64,000 nt of DNA from an uncultured Opitutaceae bacterium (GTDB lineage: Bacteria > Verrucomicrobiota > Verrucomicrobiia > Opitutales > Opitutaceae), in the NCBI GenBank assembly GCA_903952145.1, contig CAJBES010000202.1, forward strand, positions 1 through 64,000. The letters run 5' to 3'. This document shows, in pieces, positions 760 through 17,588 of this stretch. The position numbers were made by a program, and so were the translations under genes. Position 1 is the first letter of the stretch, and each line of letters starts with the position of its first letter. The notes beneath the pieces are model-generated. The model had not been told where the DNA came from, did not search any database, and worked only from the letters and a program-made list of their open reading frames with translations.

Positions 760-2991
760 TTACCCCGCGACCTGCGCCGCGAGGTCACGGCAGCCCTTGA
801 GGTCGAGCTTGCCGGTGCCGAGCACGGGAATGGCCTCGACCCGGTAGATGCGCTTGGGCACCCAGAGTGCCGGCAGCCCGGCGGCGAGCAGTTTCTCCCG
901 GAGCTGGTCGCTCGTGATGTCGCGGGTGGTCAGCAGGACGAGCGCCTCGCCCTTGACGATGTCGGGCACACCCATGACCACGACGCTGTAGCTCTCATGC
1001 TCTTCCCAGCCAAAAACCTCGGCAATCTTCTGCTCAATCGTGCCGTGGGGCACCATCTCGGCGCCGATCTTGGAGAAGCGCGAGACGCGGCCCTCGATGA
1101 AAAGGAAGCCCTCGTCGTCCAGGCGGCCAAGGTCGCCGGTGATGAACCAACCGTTGCGGAAGGCGGCCTGGGTCTTGTGCGGGTCGTCGAGGTAGCCGCT
1201 GAAGACGTTGGCGCCCTTGAACCACACGATGCCCTGATCCCCGGTGGGCACCTCTTCGCCGGACTCGGGATGCACGATGCGCACCGTCATGCCGGGCAGC
1301 AGGCGGCCCGTGGAACCGGTGCGCTTGCCCACCTGCGGCTCGGCCGTCGCGGTGGTGATCGGCGGATGCGGCTGGTTGATGTTGCTCGCCGGGGTCGTCT
1401 CGGTGAGCCCGTAACCCTGCAGGATCTCGATATTGAAGCGTTCGAGAAAATCCTTGTAGAGGTCGTCCGGCAGCTTCTCGGCCCCGGTCACGACGAGTTC
1501 CAGCGAGCGGAGCTCACTCGGCTGCGCCTTGCGGAGAATGGGCCGGATGAAGGTGGGCGCGCCCAGCAGCACGGTGGCCTTTTCATCGCGGATGGCCTCG
1601 ATGATGCGGCGCGTGTCGAGGGGGCTCGGCACGGTGACGACGCGGCAGCCGCGGATGAGCACATACCAGAGCGTGACGGTGAAGCCCATGCTGTGGAAGA
1701 GCGGCAGGCAGCCCAGCATGGAAGCGGTATCGGGCAGGATGGAGAGCGAGGAAATCTGCGCGCAGTTGGCGAGGATGTTGCGGTGCGAGAGCGCCACGCC
1801 CTTGGGTTCACCGGAGCTGCCACTCGTGAAGAGCAGGCCCGCCTCGGCGCGGTCGCCGACCTTGGGCAGGCCGAGCAGGCTGGCATACCATTGGTTCGGC
1901 AGCACCCACGCCGCCAGCAGCCAGGGCAAAATCGCCTTTTTGCCGCCCATCTCGGCGAGCACGGCGCGCAGGTCGAGGGTGCGCTCGGGCCAGGGGAAAT
2001 TGGGCACCTTTTGGCGGACGGCGTCGGCGGAAAGGACGGTCACCACCCCGGCGAGCTTCATGCTGGCCTCGAGCGCGGTGCGACCGGCGGTGAAATTGAG
2101 GTTCACGGGAATCTTGCCCGCACAGAGCACCGCGAGATTGGCGATGAAGGCGCCCATGCCCGCCGGCAGCACGATGCCGACGCGCTTTTCTGGGATGGTG
2201 CGGCGGAGGTGGCGCGAGAGCGCCGCCGCGGCGGCCACCAGCTGGCCGGCCCTGACCTCTCGGCGCTCCGCGGTGCGGTCAACAATGGCCAGTCTTCCCG
2301 GATGCCGCACGAGGGCGCGCACACACTCGCGGCCGAGATGCCGGCGCAGCACGGGACGCTCGTCAAAGGCTTCGGCCCCGAGGTCCAGCAGGACCTTGCG
2401 CGCATAGGCGGAATTGACCTGGTCCGGTGGCAGGGGTGCGCCGAACTGCACAAACACATGGGTCGGCATGAGCCGGGGGGATTTCCACAGGTAGGAGTTG
2501 CCCGCAAAGGAAAACACGGAGCCCCAGATGCCGTCGATGGCCGCGGGGATGACCGGCACCCCGGCCTTCCGCGCAATCACCTCAAACCCGCGCCGAATCG
2601 TCATGAGCTGGCCGATGCGAGAGATCTGTCCCTCGGGAAACACCACCACCACCTCGCCTGCCGCCACCGCCTTGATCGCGAGGCGAATCGCCTCGGTCGG
2701 CTTGTCCGCCGAGATGGCCAGCGCGCCACTCAGCCGGAAAACAAAGTCAAAAAACGCATTGGCCCGCAGGCTGTTGTGTCCGATGAAACGGATGGGGCGC
2801 GGGCAGGCCAGCTGGAGCAAGACCGGGTCCACATAGGAGAGATGGTTGGCAATGATGAGCACCCCGCCCTGGGCGGGGATATGCTCGCTGCCGCGCGTGC
2901 GCACCCGGTAAAGCGTCCGGGCGAGAGCTGTGGCGATGACTTCCCAAAACACGGGCAGGTAGGAACGCCGGGGGGTAAATGGAGGGAGCAT
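760..2991 (-). CDS. aas: bifunctional acyltransferase / acyl-[ACP] (AMP-forming) synthetase, Aas-like
   Basis: N-terminal PlsC-type acyltransferase (NHLSYVDP, FPEGQIS) fused to an AMP-binding domain (LLFTSGSSGEPKGVALSHRN, GYGLTETTP, TGDLGRLD). Confidence 0.85.
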   Translation of the reverse strand: MLPPFTPRRSYLPVFWEVIATALARTLYRVRTRGSEHIPAQGGVLIIANHLSYVDPVLLQLACPRPIRFIGHNSLRANAFFDFVFRLSGALAISADKPTEAIRLAIKAVAAGEVVVVFPEGQISRIGQLMTIRRGFEVIARKAGVPVIPAAIDGIWGSVFSFAGNSYLWKSPRLMPTHVFVQFGAPLPPDQVNSAYARKVLLDLGAEAFDERPVLRRHLGRECVRALVRHPGRLAIVDRTAERREVRAGQLVAAAAALSRHLRRTIPEKRVGIVLPAGMGAFIANLAVLCAGKIPVNLNFTAGRTALEASMKLAGVVTVLSADAVRQKVPNFPWPERTLDLRAVLAEMGGKKAILPWLLAAWVLPNQWYASLLGLPKVGDRAEAGLLFTSGSSGEPKGVALSHRNILANCAQISSLSILPDTASMLGCLPLFHSMGFTVTLWYVLIRGCRVVTVPSPLDTRRIIEAIRDEKATVLLGAPTFIRPILRKAQPSELRSLELVVTGAEKLPDDLYKDFLERFNIEILQGYGLTETTPASNINQPHPPITTATAEPQVGKRTGSTGRLLPGMTVRIVHPESGEEVPTGDQGIVWFKGANVFSGYLDDPHKTQAAFRNGWFITGDLGRLDDEGFLFIEGRVSRFSKIGAEMVPHGTIEQKIAEVFGWEEHESYSVVVMGVPDIVKGEALVLLTTRDITSDQLREKLLAAGLPALWVPKRIYRVEAIPVLGTGKLDLKGCRDLAAQVAG

Positions 2992-3045: not shown

Positions 3046-5841
3046 TTATTTCGGCGGGGCCGGGTCGGGTGCCGCTTCATCGGCGATCAGATGCCGGAAA
3101 CGATGATAGGAAAAACCCACCCAAAGCAGCACCAACCCGAGCACGACAAACGCCACGATGCGGTATAGGGTGGAATCGATGTCCACCAGGAAGACGCGCG
3201 GCACGCACGCCGCGAGTCCGAGCAGCCCGAGGAGACGATAGACACGCTCGCGGGCAAACAGGCCGAGTGCAAACACGACGATGGCCGCGCTGCCCCACAG
3301 CACCGTGGCATAGGGCGCGAGCAGGCCGCGTTGCGCTGCAAAAAACCAGAACAGCACCGCAAGTGCGCCCACACCGTGGCCCCAAAGCGCAAACCGCCGC
3401 CAGCCCGTCGCCGCCGCCATGGCACCGCGCCGCGCCAGGATGGGCAAGGCCAGGGCCACCATCGCGAGCACAACCACCGCGGCCAACACCGGCCAGGTTG
3501 CCGTCAGCAACCAGGCGGATTGATGCCGGAGCCCGGCAGCCAGCCACCACGCCCCGGCCGACAGCAGGACGGACGACGAGGGCAGCGCCGACCAGACCCC
3601 CAACCGCCACGCGAGCACAAACACCGCCAGCGCCTCCCCCGTCGTTGCGGCCAGCAGGGCCGGGCCGGTGAAATTCGAGCGCAAGGCCAGGAGGGTGATC
3701 CACGTCGCGAGGATTGCCTGCACCACGGCAATAATCCGGCGGTGGTTCAGGCCGGCGACCAGTTCCCGCCGGCGCACCGAGAGTTGTAATATCACCGGCA
3801 ATGCCCAGGCCCCGGCGGCGGCAGCGAAGAGCCAGACATCGTCCGTCATGACCCGCAGCGGTCGATGCAACCACCAGCCGGAGACAAGGCCAAGGGTGCC
3901 GGCGCCAATCAATGGCCAGGCGCGGGCCCATGGGCTCAGCACCAGCAGGACGAGCGCCGCCCCGGCCGAAGCCGCCAGCGCCTCACCCCGGGCCAAACCC
4001 TTGAAAAACACGGTCTGCAGCACCAGCACCGCGACCAACGCCAGCCCCACCCGCAACTGCCGCCAGACTTGGGCCGCATCCACCGCCGGTCCCATCCGCG
4101 CCAACGCCACGCCGATCAACGCCACCCCGAGCAACAGCACGCTTTCATTGGCCCACAGCCACCACTCAGGGTGAAGGTGAACCTTGAACACCAGCATCTC
4201 CAGATGTGCGCCGGCCAACATCAAACCGGCGGCGACGGCCGGGCCGCGCCAGCCACCGCTTGGCCGACCGGCCACTGCCAGCAGGCCTGCCATGCCCATG
4301 AGCGCGGCGGGAGCCCAACCCGCGGGTGCAATCGCATCGCCGGCATAGCCCGCGACCAGGCCCAAAAGCGCACCGCCGAGCAGGCTGAAAATCCGCGGGG
4401 CGCCGAGCCACCGCTGGTCATAGCCGAGCAGGACGGCTGAAAGCGTCAGGTAAACCAGCGTGCCAAACGCCGGCAGCGGCGCACCGGTGGAGAGGTCCCG
4501 GGCCAGCAGCAGCAGGGACAGACCCCAGACCACCACCATCATGCCGCGCAATCCGCGAATGGCCGTGATCCGAGCCGCCGTGAGCAGCACGAAGGCCTGC
4601 ACCAGCAGCACCAGCCAGCGCAGGTGGCCGTCGCATTCCGTGATGATGCCGAGCGCGAGCAGACCCGCGGCCTTGCACGCCGCGACCGGCACCAGCGACC
4701 CCGGCTGTGCGAGCCGCCACCAGCCCAGCGTGACGGCAACCATGATGCCGCCGCTCCAGAACCAGAACGCCGCCAACTCATCGGGCAGCACGCGTGCGGT
4801 CACCAGAAAGCCCGCGGCGACCGCCGCACTGGAGTTGAGATTCTGCACGATCCGGTCGTCCCGCGTCAGCGGCGGGCCGCCCCGCCACGCCCCGGGTCCG
4901 TCCCGCAGCAGAAAGAGGCCGAACGCCGCCAGCAGGGGCAGCCATAGCTCAAGGGGTGACGGCGCGGGGGCCACGCCACTCCAGACGGCAAAGCCGATCA
5001 CCCCATACACGACATAGGTCAGCGGGAGCGCCACGAGCGAGGGGCTGCGCCAACCCGAAGTGAACTTCAGTCCCACGGCGGCGGCACCGAGCGCGAGGGC
5101 GGACCAGAGTGAAAACATTTCCAAACCGGAATAGCCGGCAAAAAAGGCCGTCACGTAGCCGAGCCCCACGGCCATGGTTGCAGTGGTCTCGGACCGGCGC
5201 CAGGCGGCGAACCCCAGAATAAAACCGGCAACCGACAGCTGTGCGACGGCAGCGGCCAGCGGCTCAGTCAGCACCTTGGTCGCCGGCACGGCATAGGCGG
5301 CGAACGCGGAAAAATACAGCAACGCAAGTCCCGCGCCGGCCACCACCGGACCGAAGCGCGGCACCCGGCGTTCCAGCCACAGGCCGGCGCAAAGCACGGC
5401 CAACGCGACGCCGATGAGCTCCGCGAGCTTCACCACCGGCGGAGTATTGCGGGAAACATAGAGGCCAAAAAAGACGACGCCAATCACCGCGAGCAGGGCG
5501 CCCACCCGGGTAGCCCACCAGGCGCCCAGCCGCGCCTCGGTATTGGCATCGCCCCGCGGTGGCCATAGCCCGAAACCCTCAAGCCAGACGCGCAAACCAC
5601 CCGGTGCGTGCGGCGGTGGCACTACTGCGGGTGGTGCCGGCGGGATGAACAAAACCGGTGGCAGCAGCGGCGGTTCTGCGGCGGGACCCGGTGGTGTCGC
5701 CACGGCGGGCGCAGCCGGCGGCGGCAATGCGTTCGCCGGGACGGCCGCAAGCCGGGCGAGCTGGCGTTTGGTCTCGGCCAGCTCCTCCTCGATGCGACCA
5801 AGTTTGCGCTGCAACTGCTCCAAATCGTAGTCGTGGGGCAT
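3046..5841 (-). CDS. DUF2339 domain-containing multi-pass membrane protein
   Basis: 931 aa; N-terminal coiled-coil/Pro-rich segment followed by many TM helices; motif region WLEGFGLWPPRGDANTEARLGAWWATRVGALLAVIGVVFF typical of DUF2339. Confidence 0.8.
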   Translation of the reverse strand: MPHDYDLEQLQRKLGRIEEELAETKRQLARLAAVPANALPPPAAPAVATPPGPAAEPPLLPPVLFIPPAPPAVVPPPHAPGGLRVWLEGFGLWPPRGDANTEARLGAWWATRVGALLAVIGVVFFGLYVSRNTPPVVKLAELIGVALAVLCAGLWLERRVPRFGPVVAGAGLALLYFSAFAAYAVPATKVLTEPLAAAVAQLSVAGFILGFAAWRRSETTATMAVGLGYVTAFFAGYSGLEMFSLWSALALGAAAVGLKFTSGWRSPSLVALPLTYVVYGVIGFAVWSGVAPAPSPLELWLPLLAAFGLFLLRDGPGAWRGGPPLTRDDRIVQNLNSSAAVAAGFLVTARVLPDELAAFWFWSGGIMVAVTLGWWRLAQPGSLVPVAACKAAGLLALGIITECDGHLRWLVLLVQAFVLLTAARITAIRGLRGMMVVVWGLSLLLLARDLSTGAPLPAFGTLVYLTLSAVLLGYDQRWLGAPRIFSLLGGALLGLVAGYAGDAIAPAGWAPAALMGMAGLLAVAGRPSGGWRGPAVAAGLMLAGAHLEMLVFKVHLHPEWWLWANESVLLLGVALIGVALARMGPAVDAAQVWRQLRVGLALVAVLVLQTVFFKGLARGEALAASAGAALVLLVLSPWARAWPLIGAGTLGLVSGWWLHRPLRVMTDDVWLFAAAAGAWALPVILQLSVRRRELVAGLNHRRIIAVVQAILATWITLLALRSNFTGPALLAATTGEALAVFVLAWRLGVWSALPSSSVLLSAGAWWLAAGLRHQSAWLLTATWPVLAAVVVLAMVALALPILARRGAMAAATGWRRFALWGHGVGALAVLFWFFAAQRGLLAPYATVLWGSAAIVVFALGLFARERVYRLLGLLGLAACVPRVFLVDIDSTLYRIVAFVVLGLVLLWVGFSYHRFRHLIADEAAPDPAPPK

Positions 5842-5870: not shown

Positions 5871-6524
5871 TTAGTTTTCGTTCGAAGATGACCGGTGCCA
5901 GTCGCGCAAATCACGGACGAGGGCGCCAAAGCCACCGGGAAAATCCCCTTCCAGCCGGCGGATGTCGTGGCGGTGGCGGCGCACCTCGCGGAGGGCGCAT
6001 TCAATCTCATGGGGCAGCGTGGGCCGGTCGGTGCCGTAAACCCGCCATTTCAGCTCGGCGCGCGTATAGGGCGGACGACCTGTTTCCTGTCCCTGCAGCC
6101 AGGCCGCCTCCGTCACGCGTTCATCCCGGCCGCAGAGATACCAGGCCTCCACGGCGGGCACGGCCACCCCCACGCAGCGCAGGACGCGTTTGCGGCCGCG
6201 CGCCGGCGGCAATTTTTTCACGGTCTGGCGGTAAACCGCGCGCAACTGGCACAGCCGGCACTGCGGATGGAAATAATTCTCCGCCTCGTGGTCCGTCGTG
6301 TGCACCACGCTGTCGTCGGAATCCACGACCACCACGAGGCCGTCGGTGTTGGTGTTGAAATGGAGGTGGCGCAGCACGGGCGGCAAAACCTGCGCCACAT
6401 TGGGCCAGCCGCGGGCGCGCAACGCCGGCTGCACCTGGGCAATCGGTCCGCCCAGCACGGCCTCGACGAGCACCTTCACGGCGATTTCATCCGCGGGCGA
6501 TTCGCTGAGCAACGCGACCCTCAT
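5871..6524 (-). CDS. TOPRIM-like (DUF4276-like) protein, partner of the upstream AAA ATPase
   Basis: MRVALLSESPADE... with a conserved-looking Glu (E8) and D68-S-D70 (VVVVDSDDS) after a hydrophobic strand; VPAVEAWYL motif; start ATG overlaps the stop of the ATPase gene (ATGA). Also contains CRLC. Confidence 0.55.
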   Translation of the reverse strand: MRVALLSESPADEIAVKVLVEAVLGGPIAQVQPALRARGWPNVAQVLPPVLRHLHFNTNTDGLVVVVDSDDSVVHTTDHEAENYFHPQCRLCQLRAVYRQTVKKLPPARGRKRVLRCVGVAVPAVEAWYLCGRDERVTEAAWLQGQETGRPPYTRAELKWRVYGTDRPTLPHEIECALREVRRHRHDIRRLEGDFPGGFGALVRDLRDWHRSSSNEN

Positions 6525-7540
6525 GGCTCGTCCGGCACGCCGCCCAAAATGCCGCTGAACCACATGTCGCCCAACGCGCCCTCCGCCAGCAATTCCTTCA
6601 GGTCCTTCCGGTCGGACAGCCGCTCGAAATACGCCGCGTTGCCCTGCTTCTGCGCGATCACCACCTCCTCCGGATGTTCCCTGAACAGGTCGAGCAGGTA
6701 GGGCGAATGCGTCGTTGCCACCACCTGCACGGGGGCCCGGGCCTCGCCAAGCTCGGCGGGATAACTGAGCCGGTAGAGCATGTCGCGCACCTCGCGCAAA
6801 ATGCGCGGATGAATCCCGCGGTCGATCTCCTCGATGCACACCACCGTGGGCGGCGCCGGCTGCAAGGTCAGGGTGAGCAGGGCCAGCAGGTAAAGCGTGC
6901 CCTGCGAGAGATTTTCAGCCGTCACCGGCTGGGGCTGATCCTTGAGCCGCAGCGCCAGCTCGACGCGGCCGTCGGCCTGGTCAACCAGCACGATGGCGGA
7001 AAATTCGGGCGCGATGCGGGACAGCTCCGCCTGCAGGCGGCTGAAGGTCCCGGGGTGACGCGCCTGCAGCCCGGCCAGGACGGCGGCCAGGTTGCCCCCG
7101 TTGCCAGCGAGTTCCGCGGTGTCATCACGCGGCACCGGTAGTGGAATCGCCGCGTGGTCGAAACGAAAGGCGCGAATCCCGTCGATGCGCGCCTTCAGTT
7201 CCGACCAGCCGGGCGGGACGGGCGGGTCGAGCGCCAGCAGGTCGCAGACCGATTCGGAGATGCAGACCAGCCGGGCGGTGACCCCCTCGTTGGGCTTGGC
7301 GAAATGAAATGCCATCTCCGGCCCACCGGCCCGCCGGGCCTGCTTTTCGGGGTGATCGACCAGGGGCAGCCGGGCGAGCGTGCGCAAACGCAACAGCGCT
7401 TCCATGAGACTCGTCTTGCCGCTGCCGTTGGGGCCGATGACGAGATTGAACGGGAGCAGGGCGACGTGCGCGTTGCGCAGCGCCTTGAAATTCCGGAAAG
7501 CAACGGAGGCGATCACCTGCACAGCATGGGGCTCCGGCAC
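6521..7540 (-). CDS. AAA family ATPase (AAA_21/SMC-RecF-like, ABC-type)
   Basis: Walker A GPNGSGKTS, ABC signature LSQGT, Walker B VVCIEEIDRGIHP, H-loop ATTHSPYLLD; 339 aa. Confidence 0.85.
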   Translation of the reverse strand: MPEPHAVQVIASVAFRNFKALRNAHVALLPFNLVIGPNGSGKTSLMEALLRLRTLARLPLVDHPEKQARRAGGPEMAFHFAKPNEGVTARLVCISESVCDLLALDPPVPPGWSELKARIDGIRAFRFDHAAIPLPVPRDDTAELAGNGGNLAAVLAGLQARHPGTFSRLQAELSRIAPEFSAIVLVDQADGRVELALRLKDQPQPVTAENLSQGTLYLLALLTLTLQPAPPTVVCIEEIDRGIHPRILREVRDMLYRLSYPAELGEARAPVQVVATTHSPYLLDLFREHPEEVVIAQKQGNAAYFERLSDRKDLKELLAEGALGDMWFSGILGGVPDEP

Positions 7541-7691: not shown

Positions 7692-7974
7692 ACGCGCCAA
7701 CGCCAAGATCCGTCCACCCGCCACCGTGGCCCGCATGCCCGCCACAGAGGGGGCCAATTTCGATTGGTCGGCCGCCCCGCCGGCCAGTTTTCCAAAGCTG
7801 CAGCCCAGTTCGGGAACCATCTCGCGGCGCATGCCCGTATGGATGCGGCACAAGCTGAAATCACGTGCCAACTCCCTCGCGACTGAAGGCGGGATATTGC
7901 GCCTCTATTCCCCAAGCCAGACCCCGTTCCTTTGCCCGGCAGCCACGCCGGTTGACTTTGGGTCACGGCCTTGA
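7687..7974 (+). pseudogene. degenerate CopG/BrnA-type antitoxin
   Basis: FDWSAAPPASFPKLQPSSGTISRRMPVWMRHKLKSRAN (7759-7872) resembles ribbon-helix-helix antitoxins (FPNLKPSTKTISLRLPEx...LKxxAN); the expected VPYQSL tail is absent. Confidence 0.6.
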
Positions 7975-7978
7975 AAAA

Positions 7979-8980
7979 ATGGCCGGGATGGAATCCTCCG
8001 ATTCGGCCCGCTGCAGCCGGCGCAATTTCCTCAAAACGGCCGCCCTGTCCACCGCCGCCCTGGCGGTTGATGCCGCGTTCGCAAAACCCGGTGCAAGTAT
8101 GATGCCTTCCAATCCCCCCGTCCTGCCGCGCCGGCCGTATGGCCGCACCGGCATCCAGCTTTCGATCATCGGCATGGGCGGGATTGTCGTGCAAAACGCC
8201 GCGCCGGCGCACGCCAACCGTCTGGTGGCCGAATTCGTGGAGCGGGGCGTGAACTATTTCGATGTGGCGCCTTCGTATGGCGACGCGGAGCAGAAGCTGG
8301 GCCCGGCACTGGAACCGCACCGCCAGAAAGTCTTTCTTGCGTGCAAGACCACCCAGCGCCACCGCGCCGGCGCCAGCGCGGAGCTGCAGCATTCACTCGC
8401 CACGCTGCGCACCGACTACTTCGACCTTTACCAACTCCATGCGGTGACCGATGTCGCCAAGGATATTGACGCGGTCTTTGCCCGGGGCGGGGCGATGGAG
8501 GCCTGCATCGAGGCAAAGAAATCAGGGCAGGTGCGTCACCTCGGGTTCTCGGCGCATTCGGTGGCGGCGGCCTTGGCGGCCATGGATCGCTACGAGTTCG
8601 ATTCGATCCTGTTCCCGGTGAATTTTGCCACCTATCACACCGGCAATTTTGGGCCACAGATCATGGAGCGGGCCCAGGCCAAAGGTCTGGCGCGGCTGGC
8701 CCTGAAGGCCCTGGCGCGGCAGAAATGGCCCCCGGGCAACACCGAGCGGCAGAAATATCCAAAGTGCTGGTATCAACCGCTGACCGATGCGCATGAGGCG
8801 GAATTGGCCCTGCGCTTTACCTTGAGTCAGCCGGTCACCGCGGCGCTGCCGCCCGGCGACGAGTCCTTGTTCCGCCTCGCGCTCGGTCTGGCGGAGAAAT
8901 TCAGGCCCCTGTCCGAGCCGGAGGCAAAGGAACTGCAAAGCCTGGCCGCCGGCCTCGACCCGGTCTTTCGCGCCACCTGA
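7979..8980 (+). CDS. aldo/keto reductase with Tat-type signal
   Basis: RRNFLKTAALSTAALAVDAAFA signal; PYGRTGIQLSIIGMGGI, FDVAPSYGDAEQKLGPAL, LYQLHAV motifs of the AKR family. Confidence 0.8.
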   Translation: MAGMESSDSARCSRRNFLKTAALSTAALAVDAAFAKPGASMMPSNPPVLPRRPYGRTGIQLSIIGMGGIVVQNAAPAHANRLVAEFVERGVNYFDVAPSYGDAEQKLGPALEPHRQKVFLACKTTQRHRAGASAELQHSLATLRTDYFDLYQLHAVTDVAKDIDAVFARGGAMEACIEAKKSGQVRHLGFSAHSVAAALAAMDRYEFDSILFPVNFATYHTGNFGPQIMERAQAKGLARLALKALARQKWPPGNTERQKYPKCWYQPLTDAHEAELALRFTLSQPVTAALPPGDESLFRLALGLAEKFRPLSEPEAKELQSLAAGLDPVFRAT

Positions 8981-9142: not shown

Positions 9143-10237
9143 TCATTCCGTCTGCACCACCACGAGATCGTCGAAGTGCAGGCCGCAGTAGACCTGGTCG
9201 CCCTCGTGGAAGGCCTCGCTGATCGCGCTTTCGTTGGCCACCAGCGCATGGAACCGCGTGCCGTGCTCGGTGGCCAGCAGGAGCTGGTCGGTCGCCCCTT
9301 GGAAAATCTCCTCCTCGATGCGGACCTCGAAGACGTTTTCCGCCTCCGGGCGCTGCCGGGAGATATGGATCTTCTCCGGCCGGATGGAAATCAGCGCCTT
9401 GACCGCGGCCGGCGGCAATTCGAGCGCAGAAATGGTCAGTTCGAGCCCGGAGGCGACGCGGACGCGGGCGGTGAGACCGTTGCGTCCGGTCACCGTGACG
9501 CTGAGCAGGTTGGCTTGGCCGATGAAATCGGCGGCAAAGGGCGAGCGCGGCCGGTGGTAAATCTCCGCAGCGCCTCCCAACTGCTCGATCCTCCCGCGAT
9601 TGATGACCGCAATGCGGTCACTCATCGTGAGGGCCTCCCCTTGGTCGTGTGTCACAAAGACAAAGGTGATCCCGAGGCGGCGTTGCAGCCGTTTCAGCTC
9701 GAGTTGCATCGTGTGGCGCAACTTGGCATCGAGGGCCGAGAGGGGCTCATCGAGCAGTAGCACCTTGGGCCGGCAGATGATCGCGCGGGCCAGGGCCACC
9801 CGTTGGCGCTGGCCACCCGAAAGCTGGTGCGGGTGGCGGTCGGCCACCTCGCCAAGCGACACGAGGTCGAGCGCATCACGGATGCGACCGGCCGCCTCCG
9901 CCGGCGGCACGCGCTGCATGCGCAAGCCGAAGCCGACGTTGTCGCGCACCGTGAGGTGAGGAAAGAGGGCGTAACTTTGGAACACCTGGTTGACGCTGCG
10001 GTGGTAAGGGGGGAGCGACGTGACGTCGCTCCCGTCCAGCAGTATGGACCCGGCATCCGGCGCCTCAAAGCCGGCCAGCAGGCGCAGCAGCGTGGTTTTG
10101 CCGCAACCGGAAGGTCCGAGCAGGGTGATGAATTCACCGGCGCGCACCGTGAGGCTCACATCGTCCACAGCAGTGAAGTCACCAAAGCGCTTGGTGACCC
10201 CGCAGAGCTCAATCATGGCGGAAGGGGCCGGTTTCAT
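9143..10237 (-). CDS. potA: spermidine/putrescine ABC transporter ATP-binding protein
   Basis: GPSGCGKTTLLRLLAGFE, LSGGQRQRVALARA, LLLDEPLSALD; TOBE-like C-terminus; overlaps the permease gene by ATGA. Confidence 0.9.
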   Translation of the reverse strand: MKPAPSAMIELCGVTKRFGDFTAVDDVSLTVRAGEFITLLGPSGCGKTTLLRLLAGFEAPDAGSILLDGSDVTSLPPYHRSVNQVFQSYALFPHLTVRDNVGFGLRMQRVPPAEAAGRIRDALDLVSLGEVADRHPHQLSGGQRQRVALARAIICRPKVLLLDEPLSALDAKLRHTMQLELKRLQRRLGITFVFVTHDQGEALTMSDRIAVINRGRIEQLGGAAEIYHRPRSPFAADFIGQANLLSVTVTGRNGLTARVRVASGLELTISALELPPAAVKALISIRPEKIHISRQRPEAENVFEVRIEEEIFQGATDQLLLATEHGTRFHALVANESAISEAFHEGDQVYCGLHFDDLVVVQTE

Positions 10238-11118
10238 GCGGCCAGTCGCGCCCCGCGGCGCTGCAGCAACACATAGGTCAGCGCGAACATGAGCATGAAC
10301 ACCACCCCGAGCGCCGCACCGAACGGCCAATCGCGGGCCTGCATGAACTGGTTTTGGATCACATTGCCGATCATGGGCACTTTGGCCCCGCCCATCAAGT
10401 CGGTGATCGCAAACATGCCGATCGCCGGCACGAAGACCAGCAGGGTGCCGGCGGCGATGCCTGGCATCGTGAGTGGGATGATCACTGAGGAAAAGGCCCG
10501 CAGGGGGCCCGCCCCCAGATCGTAGGCGGCTTCGACCAGGGCATGGTCAAGTTTCTCGGCGCTGCCGTAGATGGGCAGGATCATGAAGGGCAGATAGGCG
10601 TAAACGAGGCCGATCACCACGGCGGTGGGCGTGTAGAGCAGGCTCAGCGGTGTGACGGTCAAGTGCAGCGACTGCAGGAGGCCGTTCAGCAGCCCTTCCT
10701 GCTTGAGGATCGTGATCCAAGCATAGGTGCGAATGAGAAAACTCGTCCAGAATGGCACCATGACCAGCAGGAGCAGCTGGTTGCGCCGTTGCTCGCCGGC
10801 CCGGGCGATATAGTAGGCCACCGGGTAGCCGAGCACCACGCAGAGGAGCGTGGTGAGCCCGGCATAACCGATGGAGCGGAGAAAAATCCGGAGGTAAACC
10901 GGATCCAGCACGCGCTGGTAGTTTTCCCACGTGAAGGTGAAGATGACACCGCCGACCTCGTCGCGCTCGCAGAAACTGTAGACGAAAAGGATGGCCGCCG
11001 GCACGACGACAAACAGCAGCAGCCAGAGAACCATGGGGGCCAGCAAGGCCCAGGCCCGCCACCCCGGGGGGCGGCGGTCCGGGCCCGACGGCACTGCGGC
11101 GCTGGCGTCGGCGCTCAT
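10234..11118 (-). CDS. potB: spermidine/putrescine ABC transporter permease
   Basis: BPD-transporter permease with EAAYDLGAGPLRAF loop; adjacent to potA. Confidence 0.85.
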   Translation of the reverse strand: MSADASAAVPSGPDRRPPGWRAWALLAPMVLWLLLFVVVPAAILFVYSFCERDEVGGVIFTFTWENYQRVLDPVYLRIFLRSIGYAGLTTLLCVVLGYPVAYYIARAGEQRRNQLLLLVMVPFWTSFLIRTYAWITILKQEGLLNGLLQSLHLTVTPLSLLYTPTAVVIGLVYAYLPFMILPIYGSAEKLDHALVEAAYDLGAGPLRAFSSVIIPLTMPGIAAGTLLVFVPAIGMFAITDLMGGAKVPMIGNVIQNQFMQARDWPFGAALGVVFMLMFALTYVLLQRRGARLAA

Positions 11119-11221
11119 GCGGGTGGCAGGCTGCGGCGGCGGGGAGCGCCGCCTCCGGTCCGCGGCGGGCCCGGCCGCCCCGCCCTGCCCGCGCCGCGTG
11201 GCACACCGTAGGATTGCTCCT

Positions 11222-12244
11222 TCACAGGGCGCTCTTGAGATCGGTGACGAGCTTGTCGATCACCGTGGCCGTCTTGCCGATGTCGCGAAAGGTTTCGAGC
11301 CGGCCCCCTTTGGGGTAGCTGGCGGGATTGGCCAGCTCTTCGGGCGTGAGCAGTTTGCGCGCCGCCAGGTTGGGATTGGTGTAGGGAAAGGCCGCGGAAA
11401 TGAGGCGCGAGACCTCGGGGCGCAGGATGTAATTGATGAACGCGTGCGCCTCATCCCGGTTTTTCGCCTTGGCGGGGATGGCGAGCACATCGACGAACTG
11501 GTGCGCACCCTCGGCTGGGAGCACATACTGGAACTTGCGGTCCTGGGTCCAGAGGATGGCCGCCTCGCCGCTCCAGACGACGCCGATATCCACGTCGCCA
11601 TTGAGCAGCGCGGTCTTGGGACTGTCGGAGTCGAAGACCTTCACGAGCTTGACCCACTCGGCGAGAAGCGGACGCACCTTGGCGAGGTTGGCGGGGGTGA
11701 CGTCATTGGCGGCGAGACCCTGGGCATAGAGCGCCCAGGTGACCAGCTCCCGGCTGTCGTTGAGCACGACGAGGCGGTTTTGGAACTTCGGCTGGAAAAT
11801 GTCGCGGTAGCCCCGGATGGGCTCATGCACCTTCCCGGTGTTGACCACGATGCCGACGGTGCCAGTCATGTAGGGCACGGTGTAGGCGCCGGCCGGATCA
11901 TGCGGCAGCCGCATGAGCGCCGGGTCGATGTTTTTGAGATTGGGCAACTTGGCGGGATCGAGCGGTGCCAGCATCTGGCGGCGGATCATCACCTCGGCCG
12001 CGTAGTCGGAGGGCTGGACGAGGTCGTAGGCTCCGCCCCCGGCCACGAGCTTGGAAAGCAATTCCTCGTTCGAGGCGAAGGTCTCGAAGTTCACCTTGAT
12101 GCCGGTTTCCGCGGTGAAACCGTCGAGGACGGCCTGCGGCACGTATTCGGACCAGCCGAACAGATTGACGACACCAGCGGCGGTCAAAGCCGAGGGCGCG
12201 AGGAGCACCGACAGCGCGAGGAGGCTGGATATGGGCAGTTTCAT
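11222..12244 (-). CDS. potD: spermidine/putrescine-binding periplasmic protein
   Basis: Signal peptide; VVNLFGWSEYVPQAVLDGFTAETGIKVNFETFASNEELLSKL; YDLVQPSDY. Confidence 0.9.
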   Translation of the reverse strand: MKLPISSLLALSVLLAPSALTAAGVVNLFGWSEYVPQAVLDGFTAETGIKVNFETFASNEELLSKLVAGGGAYDLVQPSDYAAEVMIRRQMLAPLDPAKLPNLKNIDPALMRLPHDPAGAYTVPYMTGTVGIVVNTGKVHEPIRGYRDIFQPKFQNRLVVLNDSRELVTWALYAQGLAANDVTPANLAKVRPLLAEWVKLVKVFDSDSPKTALLNGDVDIGVVWSGEAAILWTQDRKFQYVLPAEGAHQFVDVLAIPAKAKNRDEAHAFINYILRPEVSRLISAAFPYTNPNLAARKLLTPEELANPASYPKGGRLETFRDIGKTATVIDKLVTDLKSAL

Positions 12245-12261
12245 GGATGAGGTGGAAACAG

Positions 12262-13143
12262 TCAGCGATGGTTGAGTTTTCTCAGGTAAGCGGAAAAAAG
12301 GACGAAGGCCACGGTCGCAAGGATGAAGACGGCGGAAAGCGCATTCAGCATGGGATTAAGCCCAACGCGTGCCAAACCGAAGACCTGGATCGGCAGGGTC
12401 GTGGAAGCGGCGCTGCGGGTGAAGAACGTGACGATGAGTTCGTCCATCGAGAGGGTGAAGGCCATCAGCGCCCCGGCGACGATCGCCGGCCGCAGGCAGG
12501 GCAGGATGACGAACCAGAAGGATTGCAACGGGGTGGCCCCCAGATCCAGGGCCGCTTCCTCCAGCGCAGGGTCGAGGCCCTGCAGCCGCGCCTGCACGGC
12601 CACGAGCACAAACGGGAAACTGAAGGTCACATGCCCGATGATGACGGTCGTGAAGCCAAGGTTGAAGCCGATGGTGGCAAAAAGAATCAGCAGGCTGATG
12701 CCCATGAGAATCTCCGGCATCACCATCGGGATCGCCACCAGCGTCTGGATGCTGCGGGCCAGCCGGAAGCGGTAGCGGTGCAACAGCCAGGCGCCGACCG
12801 TGCCGAGAATGACGGCGAGCAGGGTGCTGATGCTCGCGATGATGAGGCTGTTTTTCGCCGCCCTGATGATCGGTCCGTTCTCCAGCAGCCGGACATACCA
12901 ATCCAGCGTGAAACCCGCCCAGAGGATGTTCAGCCGCGACGCGTTGAACGAATAGACCACCAGAATGACGATCGGCAGATAGAGGAAGCCGAAAACCAGC
13001 GCCGTCCAGAAGCCAAGGGTCCGGTGCAGCAGGACAATCCCGGAAGGAAGCCGGGGGCGCGGAGCTTGGAACGGAAACGCGGTGGGCAAGGTGCACTTTT
13101 TCACCGCATCGCCCCCGGCAACGCAAGCGGTTTGACTGGGCAC
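12262..13143 (-). CDS. potC: spermidine/putrescine ABC transporter permease
   Basis: GFLYLPIVILVVYSFNASR; EEAALDLGATPLQSFW permease loop. Confidence 0.85.
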   Translation of the reverse strand: MPSQTACVAGGDAVKKCTLPTAFPFQAPRPRLPSGIVLLHRTLGFWTALVFGFLYLPIVILVVYSFNASRLNILWAGFTLDWYVRLLENGPIIRAAKNSLIIASISTLLAVILGTVGAWLLHRYRFRLARSIQTLVAIPMVMPEILMGISLLILFATIGFNLGFTTVIIGHVTFSFPFVLVAVQARLQGLDPALEEAALDLGATPLQSFWFVILPCLRPAIVAGALMAFTLSMDELIVTFFTRSAASTTLPIQVFGLARVGLNPMLNALSAVFILATVAFVLFSAYLRKLNHR

Positions 13144-13144
13144 C

Positions 13145-16138
13145 TCATTTCCCGCCGCCGAGCAGCTTGTTGAGGAGCTCGCCCGCGCCGGATTTGTCGA
13201 TCGCGAGATTGGTCAGGGCGCGGTTCAATTCGCCGGTGTCGGGCTGGCTGAGGGTGCCCCCGATGCGCAGCGGGAGATTGCACGCCGCGTAACCGAGTTC
13301 GTCGGGTTCCGCTTCCAGGGCCCCGAGAAATTTCAGCAGGTGCGCCGTGCGGCCGCGGGCGCGGAGTTTGAACTCCATCGCCAACGGACCGTCGAGCAGG
13401 GAGGTGCCGGGTTTCGCCCCGGCCTCGCCCACCCCGGTAAGGCGCAACTCGGGCGAGATGAGCGTGAAATTTTTCAACACGGCGGCCAGCGTGTCGTCCC
13501 GCACCACGATCACGCTGAGCTGGTCGTAAGGAATCGCCGACAGGGTTTTTGACAACTCGGACACCGCCTGCGCCCGGCTGGCGATGTCGCCGTATTCTTT
13601 CCTGCCGGTCATGGAGCCCAGCAGACTGCCCACGGCGGCGACGCCGGAGGCAATCCGGTTGGTGGTTTCGACCTTGCCTGCCACGCTGACCGGCAGGCCG
13701 TGGAACACCCCGCCCTTGCTCGTGAGCTGGAAATTGCCCCGGGTGGCCGCGGTGAGATTCGCCAGGGTTGCCGCGCGGCCGGTGAGCTGGCTGGTGATGT
13801 TGAAATTGCCGTCAACCGTGGCCGTCTGGCCGGGGTTCAGCGCCAGAAAAAGCGGCCTGGAATTGAAATTCCTGACGTCGAGGTCGGCGTTGATGGTGTA
13901 GGGCTGCGCAGACTGGGCGTCGAACAAAAGCCCGCCGGAAGCATTCGCCGAGGCACCCTCCCCCAGTCCGGCGCGGATACGCTCGAACTTCAGCGCCCCG
14001 CGCTCGATGAGCACGGTGCCCTGCACATCTCCAACCTCAAACTGGTCGTGGTAGTGCAGCTTTTTCAGGGCCACGGCGAGTTGGCCGCTGACGCCGTGCC
14101 AGAACGGTTGCGTTTCCTCCCGCCGGGGTTGGTCCGGCGCCGGCGTCGAGACCGGTGGACTGAGCAAGGCTGCGAGCAGCTGCACATCTTCAATGAAAAT
14201 CTCCTGACTTGTCACGCGGGCATCGGCTTTCAGGCCCTCCGGCCGCACCTGCAGCGTGCCCGCCAGTCCAATATCAGAGCGGCGCGCCTTCGCCTGGTTT
14301 TCAAAGGCCAGGGGCATATTAAAGGTGATCTGTCCTGCACCGGCGACATCCGCCCGGAGTTCGGCCGTGATGATGGGCAGCACCTCACCGGTGGACACGG
14401 CGAGATCGTCGGCACGGAAGCTGGCCTGCAATTCCTGGCGCAGGCCAAGACTGCCGGTGAATGCCCCCTGCAATTGGCCGCGCGTAAGGTTCGTCGAATC
14501 CTGCGCAAATGGCTGTTGCAACAGGCCGGGCAGTGCTGCACGCCAGCGGCCGGTGGCCTTGGTCAACTGGTCCCGGCCGGCCAGCCGACCGGCCTTGGCG
14601 GACAGGCTCAGCCATGGCACACCGCCACTGCTCGCCCGCAGTTCGGCGAGGTCAACCTGCCAACCTTGGGGCGAGTAGTCCGCCGAAAAATCCAAGGCCA
14701 GATCGAGCTTCGCGAGCAGGGGCCGGCCCGCCTCGGCCAGCGCCAGGCCGTCGATCTGCAGGGGAGCTCCGGACCGCAGCGCCAGCCCGCCTCCGGCCGC
14801 CCCAGCCTTGAGTTCGCCGCGCACCGCTCCGCCGGAAAGGGTATAGGGTTGGACAAAGGGGGCCACCCAGCCAACGGGCACGCCCTGCAGGTTGATCACG
14901 AGCAAATCCGCAGCCGGGTTGGCGACTTTGAGTTCGCCGGTGCCGGGGTTGAACACAAAGGCCTGCAGCGACTGGACGGTCAGCACGGGCGCGGCGGAGC
15001 TCACGTTCACCTTGAGCTGGTCGATGCGCACGGCACCGTCATGGAGGGTGACATCAAATTCGCCAAAGAGGCTGAGCGCGCCGACCGCGGCCAGTTCCGG
15101 CCGGAAGCTGGCGAGCCGGTCGGCGGAAGATTGCAGACGGCCGGCGGCATGGATGGCCTTGAAACCCGTGTCCGTTTCGAACATGCCCGCGCCCACGGCC
15201 GCAAAGGTGGGCAGCGACTGCCCGAGGACAAACGGCGCGAGGTCGGTGTCGCGCACGTCAAGTTTCCAGACGCCGCCGAGTCGGGCGCTGTCGGCCGGGA
15301 AGCTGGCCTGCAAGTCCACAAGGCGCTTGCCGACGGACTGGACGTTGAATGTGTAATTTTCGCCACCGGCCACACGGGCTGCGACCGCCTCAGCGGTGAG
15401 GTGCACCGCCTGCGGCAAAGCCGAACCGCCGGCAATGGCGTCAACTTTGGCGGCGAGCCGCGTGAAAGTGCGCGCCGTATCCATCGTCGCCTCCACGCTG
15501 CCGCTGACCTCGAGTTTGTTGACGGGCGACTCCCTGCCCGCGAGGGCGATGTCGGCGGCGAAAACGAAGCGACCGTCGCGGCCGGCGGCAAGCCCGCCGC
15601 CATGCAGCGTGACCGCAGCCCGGGCGGGGGCCTGGCCCGGGGTTCCGGGCAGCACCAGTTCGCCTTCCAGTTCGACGCCGTCGAGCGCCAGATCCACGGG
15701 AAGCTTGAGTTGTTCAAAGACCCCGCGGAAAACCAACGCCACGGCGGTGGCAGCCGCCTCAGCGGCGGGACTGGCAGGAGCAACGGCGCCGGCGCCCGGA
15801 GCGGAATACTTGGTCAGGTCGAGCGTCCAACCTTTGGCGATCAGGCGGGAGACCGTCACGCGTTCATGCAGCGCCGCGTCGAGCACCGACAACTGCACCT
15901 CGGCCACCGGCAGGGTCAGCACGGCGCCGCCATAGCCGGCTGACAATGTCTCCACCCGCACGCGCTGCCATCCGGCTGCGAGGCGCCCAAGCGAAACCGT
16001 GGCGCCCGGTTGCGCCGTCAGCATCCGGCGGGCGGCCCAGGTTTGGAAGGCCGGAGTGAGGGCCACCCCGGCCACCGCCAGGAGCAGGACCGCCAGCAGG
16101 GCGACGCCGAACAGGAGGAGGCGGATGAACTTCTTCAT
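13145..16138 (-). CDS. AsmA-like / DUF748-type large envelope protein
   Basis: MKKFIRLLLFGVALLAVLLLAVAGVALTPAFQTWAARRML N-terminal TM anchor and long beta-rich body; start chosen at MKKF within the longer ORF. Confidence 0.65.
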   Translation of the reverse strand: MKKFIRLLLFGVALLAVLLLAVAGVALTPAFQTWAARRMLTAQPGATVSLGRLAAGWQRVRVETLSAGYGGAVLTLPVAEVQLSVLDAALHERVTVSRLIAKGWTLDLTKYSAPGAGAVAPASPAAEAAATAVALVFRGVFEQLKLPVDLALDGVELEGELVLPGTPGQAPARAAVTLHGGGLAAGRDGRFVFAADIALAGRESPVNKLEVSGSVEATMDTARTFTRLAAKVDAIAGGSALPQAVHLTAEAVAARVAGGENYTFNVQSVGKRLVDLQASFPADSARLGGVWKLDVRDTDLAPFVLGQSLPTFAAVGAGMFETDTGFKAIHAAGRLQSSADRLASFRPELAAVGALSLFGEFDVTLHDGAVRIDQLKVNVSSAAPVLTVQSLQAFVFNPGTGELKVANPAADLLVINLQGVPVGWVAPFVQPYTLSGGAVRGELKAGAAGGGLALRSGAPLQIDGLALAEAGRPLLAKLDLALDFSADYSPQGWQVDLAELRASSGGVPWLSLSAKAGRLAGRDQLTKATGRWRAALPGLLQQPFAQDSTNLTRGQLQGAFTGSLGLRQELQASFRADDLAVSTGEVLPIITAELRADVAGAGQITFNMPLAFENQAKARRSDIGLAGTLQVRPEGLKADARVTSQEIFIEDVQLLAALLSPPVSTPAPDQPRREETQPFWHGVSGQLAVALKKLHYHDQFEVGDVQGTVLIERGALKFERIRAGLGEGASANASGGLLFDAQSAQPYTINADLDVRNFNSRPLFLALNPGQTATVDGNFNITSQLTGRAATLANLTAATRGNFQLTSKGGVFHGLPVSVAGKVETTNRIASGVAAVGSLLGSMTGRKEYGDIASRAQAVSELSKTLSAIPYDQLSVIVVRDDTLAAVLKNFTLISPELRLTGVGEAGAKPGTSLLDGPLAMEFKLRARGRTAHLLKFLGALEAEPDELGYAACNLPLRIGGTLSQPDTGELNRALTNLAIDKSGAGELLNKLLGGGK

Positions 16139-16217
16139 GAACGCAGGGCAATGACACCGCAGGGCGGCGAGAGTTGCGGTAAGGCCAAATGAAACCGCGC
16201 AACAGGGCGTGCGGGGT

Positions 16218-17588
16218 TCAGCCCTGCAGCAAAGGATCGGCCTCCCCGACGGCCTTGCGCATCGCGGCGAGCGCGATGTTGTAATTAAAATAGGCGACGA
16301 GCTGGTTGAGCCGGGCCTCAGTGAGCGCAACCTGACTGGTCAGCACATCCAGCTGCGTCGCGGTGCCGGCGCCGTAGCGGACATTCGCGAGGCGGAGGGC
16401 CTCGTTCGCCTGTTCGACGACCTTGCCGGAAGCATCGACGAGTTCCCATGCCTCGGTGAGCGAGGAGTGAGCCCGGCGGACCTCGACATCGATCGCGAGG
16501 GTGGTCTCATCCACGGCAAGCTTGGTCTGCATGAGCTGGGATTTCGCCTGCGCCACCCGGCCGGCGGTGGCGCGGCCGTCAAAGATATCCCATTGGGCCT
16601 GCAGGCCGGCGGTCCAACCATCGCGACGGTCGCCCCAACCGTTCGACGGACCGCCGCGCACCCAGTCATAGCGTCCGAAAGCCGCCACCTGCGGCAGCGC
16701 GCCGGCGCGGGAAACGACGACCCGCTGCTCGCCGGCGCCTTCGAGTTTGGCGAGACGCTGCAGTTCGGGGCGGTTGGCCCGGGCGCGGGTGAGGGCATCG
16801 CGCATATCGTAGGCCTTCTGCTCAATCTCGGAAAGCGAGCCGACGAACTGGGGGGTCTTGGAGATATTGGCACCGCTGACATTGGTGAAGCCGATCACCT
16901 GCCGGAGCTCCTCGATGGCGATGCGCAGGAAATTGCGCGAGGTGATCAGGGCGGGCCGGCCGTTGGCGAGCGCGACCTCGGCGCGGAGCACCTCGAAGTT
17001 CGAGACGGCCCCGGCCTCGAAACGGTTGCGGGCGTCTTTGAGCTGCTCCTCGAGCAGCTTGACGTTCTCCTCCTGCACCCCGATGCGCTGTTGGGCCAGC
17101 AGCACGGCAAAGAAACGGGTGCGCACAAGCAGGAGCTGTTCATTGATGACGCCCTGGAGTTCGAGGGCGGCCGCCTCGCGGACCAGCGTGGATCCCTTCA
17201 CCGAGGCCCGGACCCCACCGCCGGCGTAAACAACCTGGGTGGCCTGCACGGCGAAGCCCCAGTCGCGGTTCTGGGCGGGCATGGCGGAAGAGACCTCCTT
17301 GTCATTGCCGGAAAAGTCGCCGTTGGCACTGACGTTCGGAATCTGCCGGGAGCGTACCTCAAGGATCACGCCCTCCTGCTCCTTGATGCGCTCCTGTGCC
17401 TGGCGGATGGCATAGTTGTTATCGAGCGCAAAGGACAGGGCGTAGGCGAGGTTGAGCTCCTCCGGCACCTCATAGCTGGGGTCGGGCCGGCCGTCGCGCT
17501 GGAAGGGCGGTGGTTCCGCCATCAGGACGCAGACGGTGACCACGGGCAGGGCAAGAGCAAGAACCAGGGAGCGAAGGGACGTTTTCAT
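16218..17588 (-). CDS. TolC-family outer membrane efflux protein
   Basis: 456 aa with signal peptide and repeated TolC-type coiled-coil segments (LNLAYALSFALDNNYAIRQAQERI; RLANVRYGAGTATQLDVLTSQVALTEARLN). Confidence 0.85.
   Translation of the reverse strand: MKTSLRSLVLALALPVVTVCVLMAEPPPFQRDGRPDPSYEVPEELNLAYALSFALDNNYAIRQAQERIKEQEGVILEVRSRQIPNVSANGDFSGNDKEVSSAMPAQNRDWGFAVQATQVVYAGGGVRASVKGSTLVREAAALELQGVINEQLLLVRTRFFAVLLAQQRIGVQEENVKLLEEQLKDARNRFEAGAVSNFEVLRAEVALANGRPALITSRNFLRIAIEELRQVIGFTNVSGANISKTPQFVGSLSEIEQKAYDMRDALTRARANRPELQRLAKLEGAGEQRVVVSRAGALPQVAAFGRYDWVRGGPSNGWGDRRDGWTAGLQAQWDIFDGRATAGRVAQAKSQLMQTKLAVDETTLAIDVEVRRAHSSLTEAWELVDASGKVVEQANEALRLANVRYGAGTATQLDVLTSQVALTEARLNQLVAYFNYNIALAAMRKAVGEADPLLQG

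Follow-up and report, generated by a model that had tools for sequence, protein, structure and literature searches.

The window (the whole stretch of 64,000 nucleotides that was analysed, from an Opitutaceae genome, G000, whose closest named relatives are Opitutaceae MAGs) carries on its reverse strand a gene for an ABC/SMC-head-type ATPase that overlaps a gene for a smaller TOPRIM-like partner, with genes for a DUF2339 membrane protein and an Aas-like protein beyond them (Table 1). As these four genes share a strand and are separated by short gaps at most, they probably form one transcript in the window. The DUF2339 gene is found at the same place in few relatives only. The two-gene unit is real and a chance pair of ORFs is ruled out, as 141 relatives of the partner were confirmed in named genome contigs and, among the best 80 of these, the ATPase lies directly upstream in the same order and strand in 78 loci. 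A preliminary description of this DNA had proposed a candidate defence module made up of an AAA-ATPase and a TOPRIM-like protein. The ATPase motifs, strand, coordinates and ATGA overlap that it gave were all found, as were residues E8 and D68/D70 and the VPAVEAWYL and CRLC motifs of the partner, but the length of that protein had to be corrected from 213 to 217 aa.

Table 1. Features of the ATPase/partner locus and its surroundings (window coordinates)
Feature	Position	Strand	Remarks
Aas-like PlsC acyltransferase + AMP-binding ligase	760..2991	-	743 aa; 54-nt gap after DUF2339
DUF2339 membrane protein	3046..5841	-	next gene past partner, 29-nt gap
TOPRIM-like partner	5871..6524	-	217 aa, ATG start; no Pfam/PADLOC/NCBIfam family
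Glu126 in VPAVEAWYL of partner, after strand 4	6147..6149	-	invariant; aligns with Glu of DUF4276 HEFEAL/ELEAWYL
His/Cys cluster H75, H79, H86-P-x-C89-R-x-C92 of partner	6249..6302	-	invariant; putative metal-binding insertion
D68-S-D70 of partner, end of strand 3	6315..6323	-	invariant DxD
Glu8 of partner, after strand 1	6501..6503	-	invariant; putative TOPRIM catalytic Glu
ATGA overlap, ATPase stop/partner start	6521..6524	-	4 nt; suggests translational coupling
ABC/SMC-head-type ATPase	6521..7540	-	339 aa, GTG start; Pfam AAA_21, PADLOC best HEC-01A
H-loop His278 (TTHS) of ATPase	6707..6709	-	motif reading and relatives' alignment
Walker B VVCIEEID, ATPase residues 233-240	6821..6844	-	motif reading and relatives' alignment
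ABC signature LSQGT, ATPase residues 211-215	6896..6910	-	motif reading and relatives' alignment
Walker A G36PNGSGKTS44, ATPase residues 36-44	7409..7435	-	motif reading and relatives' alignment
Divergent aldo/keto reductase	7865-8980	+	between AsmA and pair in window
potABCD-like transporter operon	9143-13143	-	between AsmA and pair in window
AsmA-family protein	13145..16330	-	upstream site boundary in many relatives

The Walker A, SQG, EE/D and H-loop positions of the ATPase are invariant or nearly so across 61-74 relatives, and the conserved blocks of the alignment consist of these catalytic motifs and a C-terminal GDMWFSGILGGVP, whereas residues ~61-120 and 136-210 are variable. The protein matches Pfam AAA_21 (1.6e-30) and, among PADLOC models, scores best with HEC-01A (6.9e-43), the ATPase of HEC-01, a PADLOC candidate defence system (HEC-01A, an AAA_21 ATPase, with HEC-01B, a DUF4276 protein). 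AriA (3.7e-30), PDC-M07A, MAD3 and AbiLi follow, and PtuA also scored. With its AF2 model (pLDDT 91.3) the best PDB matches in Foldseek were PtuA of retron Ec78/Eco7 and Septu, Rad50 and SMC heads (E down to 1e-13, TM about 0.5-0.6); a PDB sequence match to an OLD protein is weak and covers the Walker A region only. To judge from these matches the ATPase is of the DNA-repair/defence type and its closest named relatives are the HEC-01A proteins, not specifically OLD or PARIS. The earlier suggestion of a minimal split OLD/PARIS-like system thus holds for the conserved split layout of ABC-type ATPase and TOPRIM-like partner, which is that of PARIS, AbiL and HEC-01, but not for the relatives that it named.

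In the partner, residues E8, S9, D12, E13, D68, D70, H75, H79, H86, C89, C92 and E126 are identical in 80/80 sequences. The AF2 model (68 sequences; pLDDT 90.6, pTM 0.87) predicts a strand at 2-7 with E8 at its end, a helix at 10-24, a strand at 29-31, a helix at 43-57, a strand at 62-67 with D68 and D70 at its end, helices at 77-80 and 90-102, a strand at 116-121 and a helix at 122-129 that contains E126, followed by further helices. This topology, b1(E8)-a-b2-a-b3(DxD)-a-b4-a(E126), is the TOPRIM strand/helix order, so that the core anticipated in the preliminary description is indeed predicted. Neither the protein nor its alignment matched anything in Pfam, PADLOC, NCBIfam or PDB sequences, and a Pfam search of 68 relatives recognised none. 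With PADLOC, HEC-01B was unmatched at E<=1 by the window partner and by two divergent relatives, and PF14103 (DUF4276) likewise had no match at E<=1, let alone one above its gathering cut-off; as had been supposed, no HMM places the protein in DUF4276 or DUF4435. Foldseek of the model against PDB and BFVD gave nothing at E<=0.001, the highest TM listed among viral structures (0.39-0.40, not significant) belonging to an RloB-like phage protein. As Foldseek gave no significant match, it is predicted topology, motifs and gene position that underlie the TOPRIM assignment, and on these grounds the partner is probably a TOPRIM-type nuclease that has had no name until now.

Profile-profile comparison (hhalign) aligned the partner with a DUF4276 alignment (A3) at E 4e-4 (probability 34%) and with a second DUF4276 subgroup at E 7e-3 (probability 5%), compared with E 0.48 for an unrelated control. 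Both alignments are collinear over the N-terminal acidic residues, the DxD motif and E126, and the His/Cys stretch, which is absent from the DUF4276 alignments, appears as an insertion relative to the second subgroup. In related genomes a related ATPase is followed by a genuine DUF4276 gene (PF14103 6.6e-47 in G104 and 1.8e-24 in G056), and in a third, G085, an ATPase match has a DUF4276 gene (3.7e-49) just downstream; PADLOC labels such neighbours HEC-01A/HEC-01B. The ATPases of G104 and G056 have the C-terminal lGxxWxxGxlGG motif in common with the window ATPase. Because these sister ATPases adjoin DUF4276 genes, the partner can be said to occupy the DUF4276 slot. The pair is thus a HEC-01-like ATPase/TOPRIM pair with a His/Cys-bearing partner that models do not recognise, and the partner, which had been thought a possible distinct branch, is best seen as a far-diverged DUF4276 relative with an extra His/Cys module. 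The lack of any significant Foldseek or family match would also suit an alpha/beta protein of a different (Rossmann-like) kind that carries a metal site, for example a regulator of the ATPase and not a TOPRIM nuclease, but we regard this as improbable given that topology and collinear acidic motifs fit DUF4276 and that the genomic position is that of DUF4276 beside sister ATPases. A search of a limited literature set for HEC-01 or DUF4276 returned no relevant paper. We also observed a second HEC-01-type pair in two Opitutaceae (L200 and L203, from G056 and G079), with a diverged DUF4276-like protein starting RIYIEGGGDT/RIYLEGGGDT; in both it is inserted beside apparent NADH dehydrogenase (nuo) genes, a neighbourhood that is possibly an insertion hotspot.

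The partner is a single-copy gene in 62/90 Opitutaceae genomes of a 141-genome sample, about 31% (28/90) having no pair and no obvious replacement, and across the phylum it was found in 28/388 genomes (28/37 Opitutaceae, 0/351 others). The conserved pairing that had been predicted is borne out by the 78 adjacent loci and by a 79th genome (G742) that has both genes unlinked, an intact partner (L070) and an intact ATPase (L274; 65% identity, with no partner beside it) lying on different contigs. In the remaining genome, that of L049, an assembly of unassessed quality, the partner is present and the ATPase was not detected. Outside Opitutaceae a relative of the pair was found only in G097, from another family of the same order, where an ATPase homologue (39%) precedes a 108-aa ORF (L198:2367-3697). 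Both ends of the partner survive in this ORF, the N-terminus in alignment (MKIAFYSESEADEE; 41% over 32 aa) and the C-terminus as judged by eye, whereas the core with DxD, His/Cys and EAW is gone, by appearance removed in frame; the ORF is a copy in decay or else encodes a stripped-down regulator. The flanks of the G097 locus resemble prfA, a thioredoxin-domain (DUF255-like) gene and serS. These exceptions bear on a toxin-antitoxin reading of the NetFlax D29/D44 type, in which the partner would be toxic alone and the ATPase would neutralise it. The gene order (ATPase first, genes overlapping) would suit such a unit, and AAA D29 with TOPRIM_OLD/RloB toxins has been validated (PMC10440598). However, the intact partner of L049's genome argues mildly against it, as do the unlinked genes in L070's genome and the fact that no plasmid, phage or mobile context of the pair was seen, and we consider it unlikely.

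The pair nearly always occupies the same chromosomal site, the family order being TolC-AsmA-[pair]-Aas: Aas follows downstream, on the strand of the pair, in 70/80 loci (about 72 having enough flank to tell) and TolC-AsmA upstream in about 40 of 80. Seven genomes free of the pair (G019, G062, G027, G029, G021, G067 and G042) keep TolC-AsmA-Aas with an AsmA-Aas gap of ~80-650 bp, and another (G087) has AsmA-potCDBA-Aas, which is the window arrangement minus the pair. Presence is mixed inside genera g2, g16, g21, g26 and g38, with clean empty sites, and a single genus holds both G024 with the pair and G067 without. Distances among relatives for each gene of the pair track those for Aas (Spearman 0.47 and 0.64) about as Aas follows AsmA (0.61). 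Against RecA, a single and possibly poor marker, the distance correlation was weak but positive (0.39-0.40) with 15-20 supported tree conflicts. The simplest account is one old acquisition followed by mostly vertical descent and many clean losses, perhaps with some exchange of the pair within Opitutaceae. In many relatives (loci L041, L042, L056, L071 and others) the Aas-like protein is about 1150-1200 aa long, with ~400 extra N-terminal residues, perhaps a putative MFS/LplT-like domain, that the window copy does not have.

Two purposes for the pair have to be weighed against this background, and they overlap with each other and with the mechanistic reading given below. An anti-phage role of abortive-infection type, in which the ATPase would sense a phage product and unleash the partner nuclease as in PARIS, is possible, but we hold it with reserve. 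Defence is suggested by the relatives of the ATPase, whose best-scoring named models are defence or candidate-defence ones, and by the presence/absence polymorphism; the strong variation of the ATPase beyond its motifs and the tree conflicts that suggest exchange within the family point the same way. Yet no defence neighbours were seen in the window or in relatives, the neighbours being envelope, lipid, transport and housekeeping genes, and the viral contigs searched contained no relatives of the partner (nor any for two DUF4276 queries). The partner is moreover conserved like the neighbouring Aas (mean pairwise identity 69%, compared with 65% for Aas and 57% for the ATPase), and the pair is kept in the reduced 2.1-2.4 Mb genomes of Cephaloticoccus. 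The defence label of the preliminary description, which had itself named the absence of a defence island as grounds for giving it up, therefore fares poorly: no such context was found, and what was found is one family and one site between envelope and lipid genes. Given the family restriction and the fixed site, the pair is probably not a typical mobile anti-phage gene, a reading that absence from viral contigs and slow evolution of the partner also disfavour.

The same fixed site and retention in reduced genomes, together with strong purifying selection on the partner (80 sequences) and distances in step with those of Aas, would suit a lineage-specific housekeeping or stress role (DNA gap repair or RNA processing). 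The RecF-RecR-like pair would then descend from a defence-type ancestor through domestication, and might be coupled to the lipid/envelope genes beside it; the RecF-like architecture and the TOPRIM-like partner with its His/Cys cluster would agree with this. We find such a role doubtful, as nearly a third of Opitutaceae manage with neither the pair nor an obvious replacement, it is absent from same-genus species (G067 compared with G024), and almost every genome has RecR whether or not the pair is there. Substitution for RecR was considered and rejected for this last reason (RecR was detected in 122/141 genomes, independently of the pair); RecR was not found in the window's own genome, probably because the assembly is incomplete. 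A fuller version, in which a defence-type pair was captured once by an Opitutaceae ancestor, gained the metal-binding insertion and, at the envelope/lipid locus, was domesticated to serve the cell in a lineage-specific way (RNA or DNA cleavage triggered by stress, or repair) in place of phage defence, seems to us rather unlikely.

Whatever its purpose, the pair is in our judgement somewhat more probably than otherwise a regulated ATPase-nuclease module of the HEC-01/PARIS/AbiL type. In PARIS, AriA holds the TOPRIM tRNase AriB sequestered until infection sets it free (PMC12409363), and there are AAA-ATPase/TOPRIM pairs in which the TOPRIM protein is the toxic effector, ATPases neutralising TOPRIM_OLD/RloB toxins (PMC10440598). 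In our reading, the small SMC/PtuA-like ABC ATPase would bind the partner, restrain it or switch it on, and couple it to a trigger. The partner would be a metal-dependent TOPRIM-type nuclease (E8, D68xD70 and probably E126) with its own His/Cys metal site and, once released or activated, would cut nucleic acid (tRNA or DNA). Nuclease activity, metal binding and control by the ATPase are what we infer beyond the results themselves, which comprise the conserved co-occurring genes, the ATPase fold, the predicted TOPRIM-like topology of the partner, the fixed locus and its empty sites. By homology, an ATP-gated, trigger-released metal nuclease is to us the likeliest mechanism. The module would be resident in Opitutaceae and mostly vertically inherited, with clean losses in roughly one species in three. 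Points against this reading are the insignificant fold matches and low hhalign probabilities of the partner, the L049 partner with no detectable ATPase, the G097 ATPase with its core-deleted partner, and the context, family restriction and viral searches discussed above.

Bacterial immunity makes repeated use of ATPase + TOPRIM pairs, and most of the described ones are mobile. A pair that stays at one site within a single family, and has been cleanly lost there several times, thus offers a natural test of how such modules turn resident, for which the same-genus empty sites provide ready comparison strains. The partner family, with its invariant His/Cys module, escaped every model searched and is a missing model for defence-finding libraries. 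The benefit may be anti-phage or concern another stress; a regulated ATPase-nuclease module is the best reading.

Among known systems, Gabija GajA and OLD proteins also combine an ABC ATPase with TOPRIM, but the window has two ORFs overlapping by 4 nt in place of a fusion and no adjacent helicase. AbiL/RloAB and NetFlax D29-D44/D60 have an ATPase with a separate TOPRIM_OLD/RloB-like protein, and an RloB-like protein gave the top, though not significant, TM among the listed viral matches; the window partner, however, has no RloB Pfam match and the pair is not linked to plasmids or R-M genes. PARIS (AriA ATPase + AriB TOPRIM tRNase) is likewise an operon of split ABC ATPase and TOPRIM-like effector, but its AriA model is weaker for the window ATPase than HEC-01A, the partner has no AriB or DUF4435 match in Pfam or PADLOC, and there is no PARIS-like mobile context. 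In RecF-RecR a RecF-type ATPase works with a TOPRIM protein bearing a Cys metal site, which resembles the window pair, but pair-bearing genomes keep their own RecR, and domain order and motifs differ. HEC-01 is set apart by its HEC-01B partner, which the window partner resembles only weakly in profile-profile comparison, by the extra invariant H/H/HPxCxxC module of the latter, and by the fixation of the window pair at one locus in one family, away from defence islands. It nevertheless comes closest: its ATPase gives the best match and has the C-terminal GG motif in common with that of the window, its two genes are likewise adjacent and begin with the ATPase, and the window partner shows the E...DxD...E order of DUF4276.
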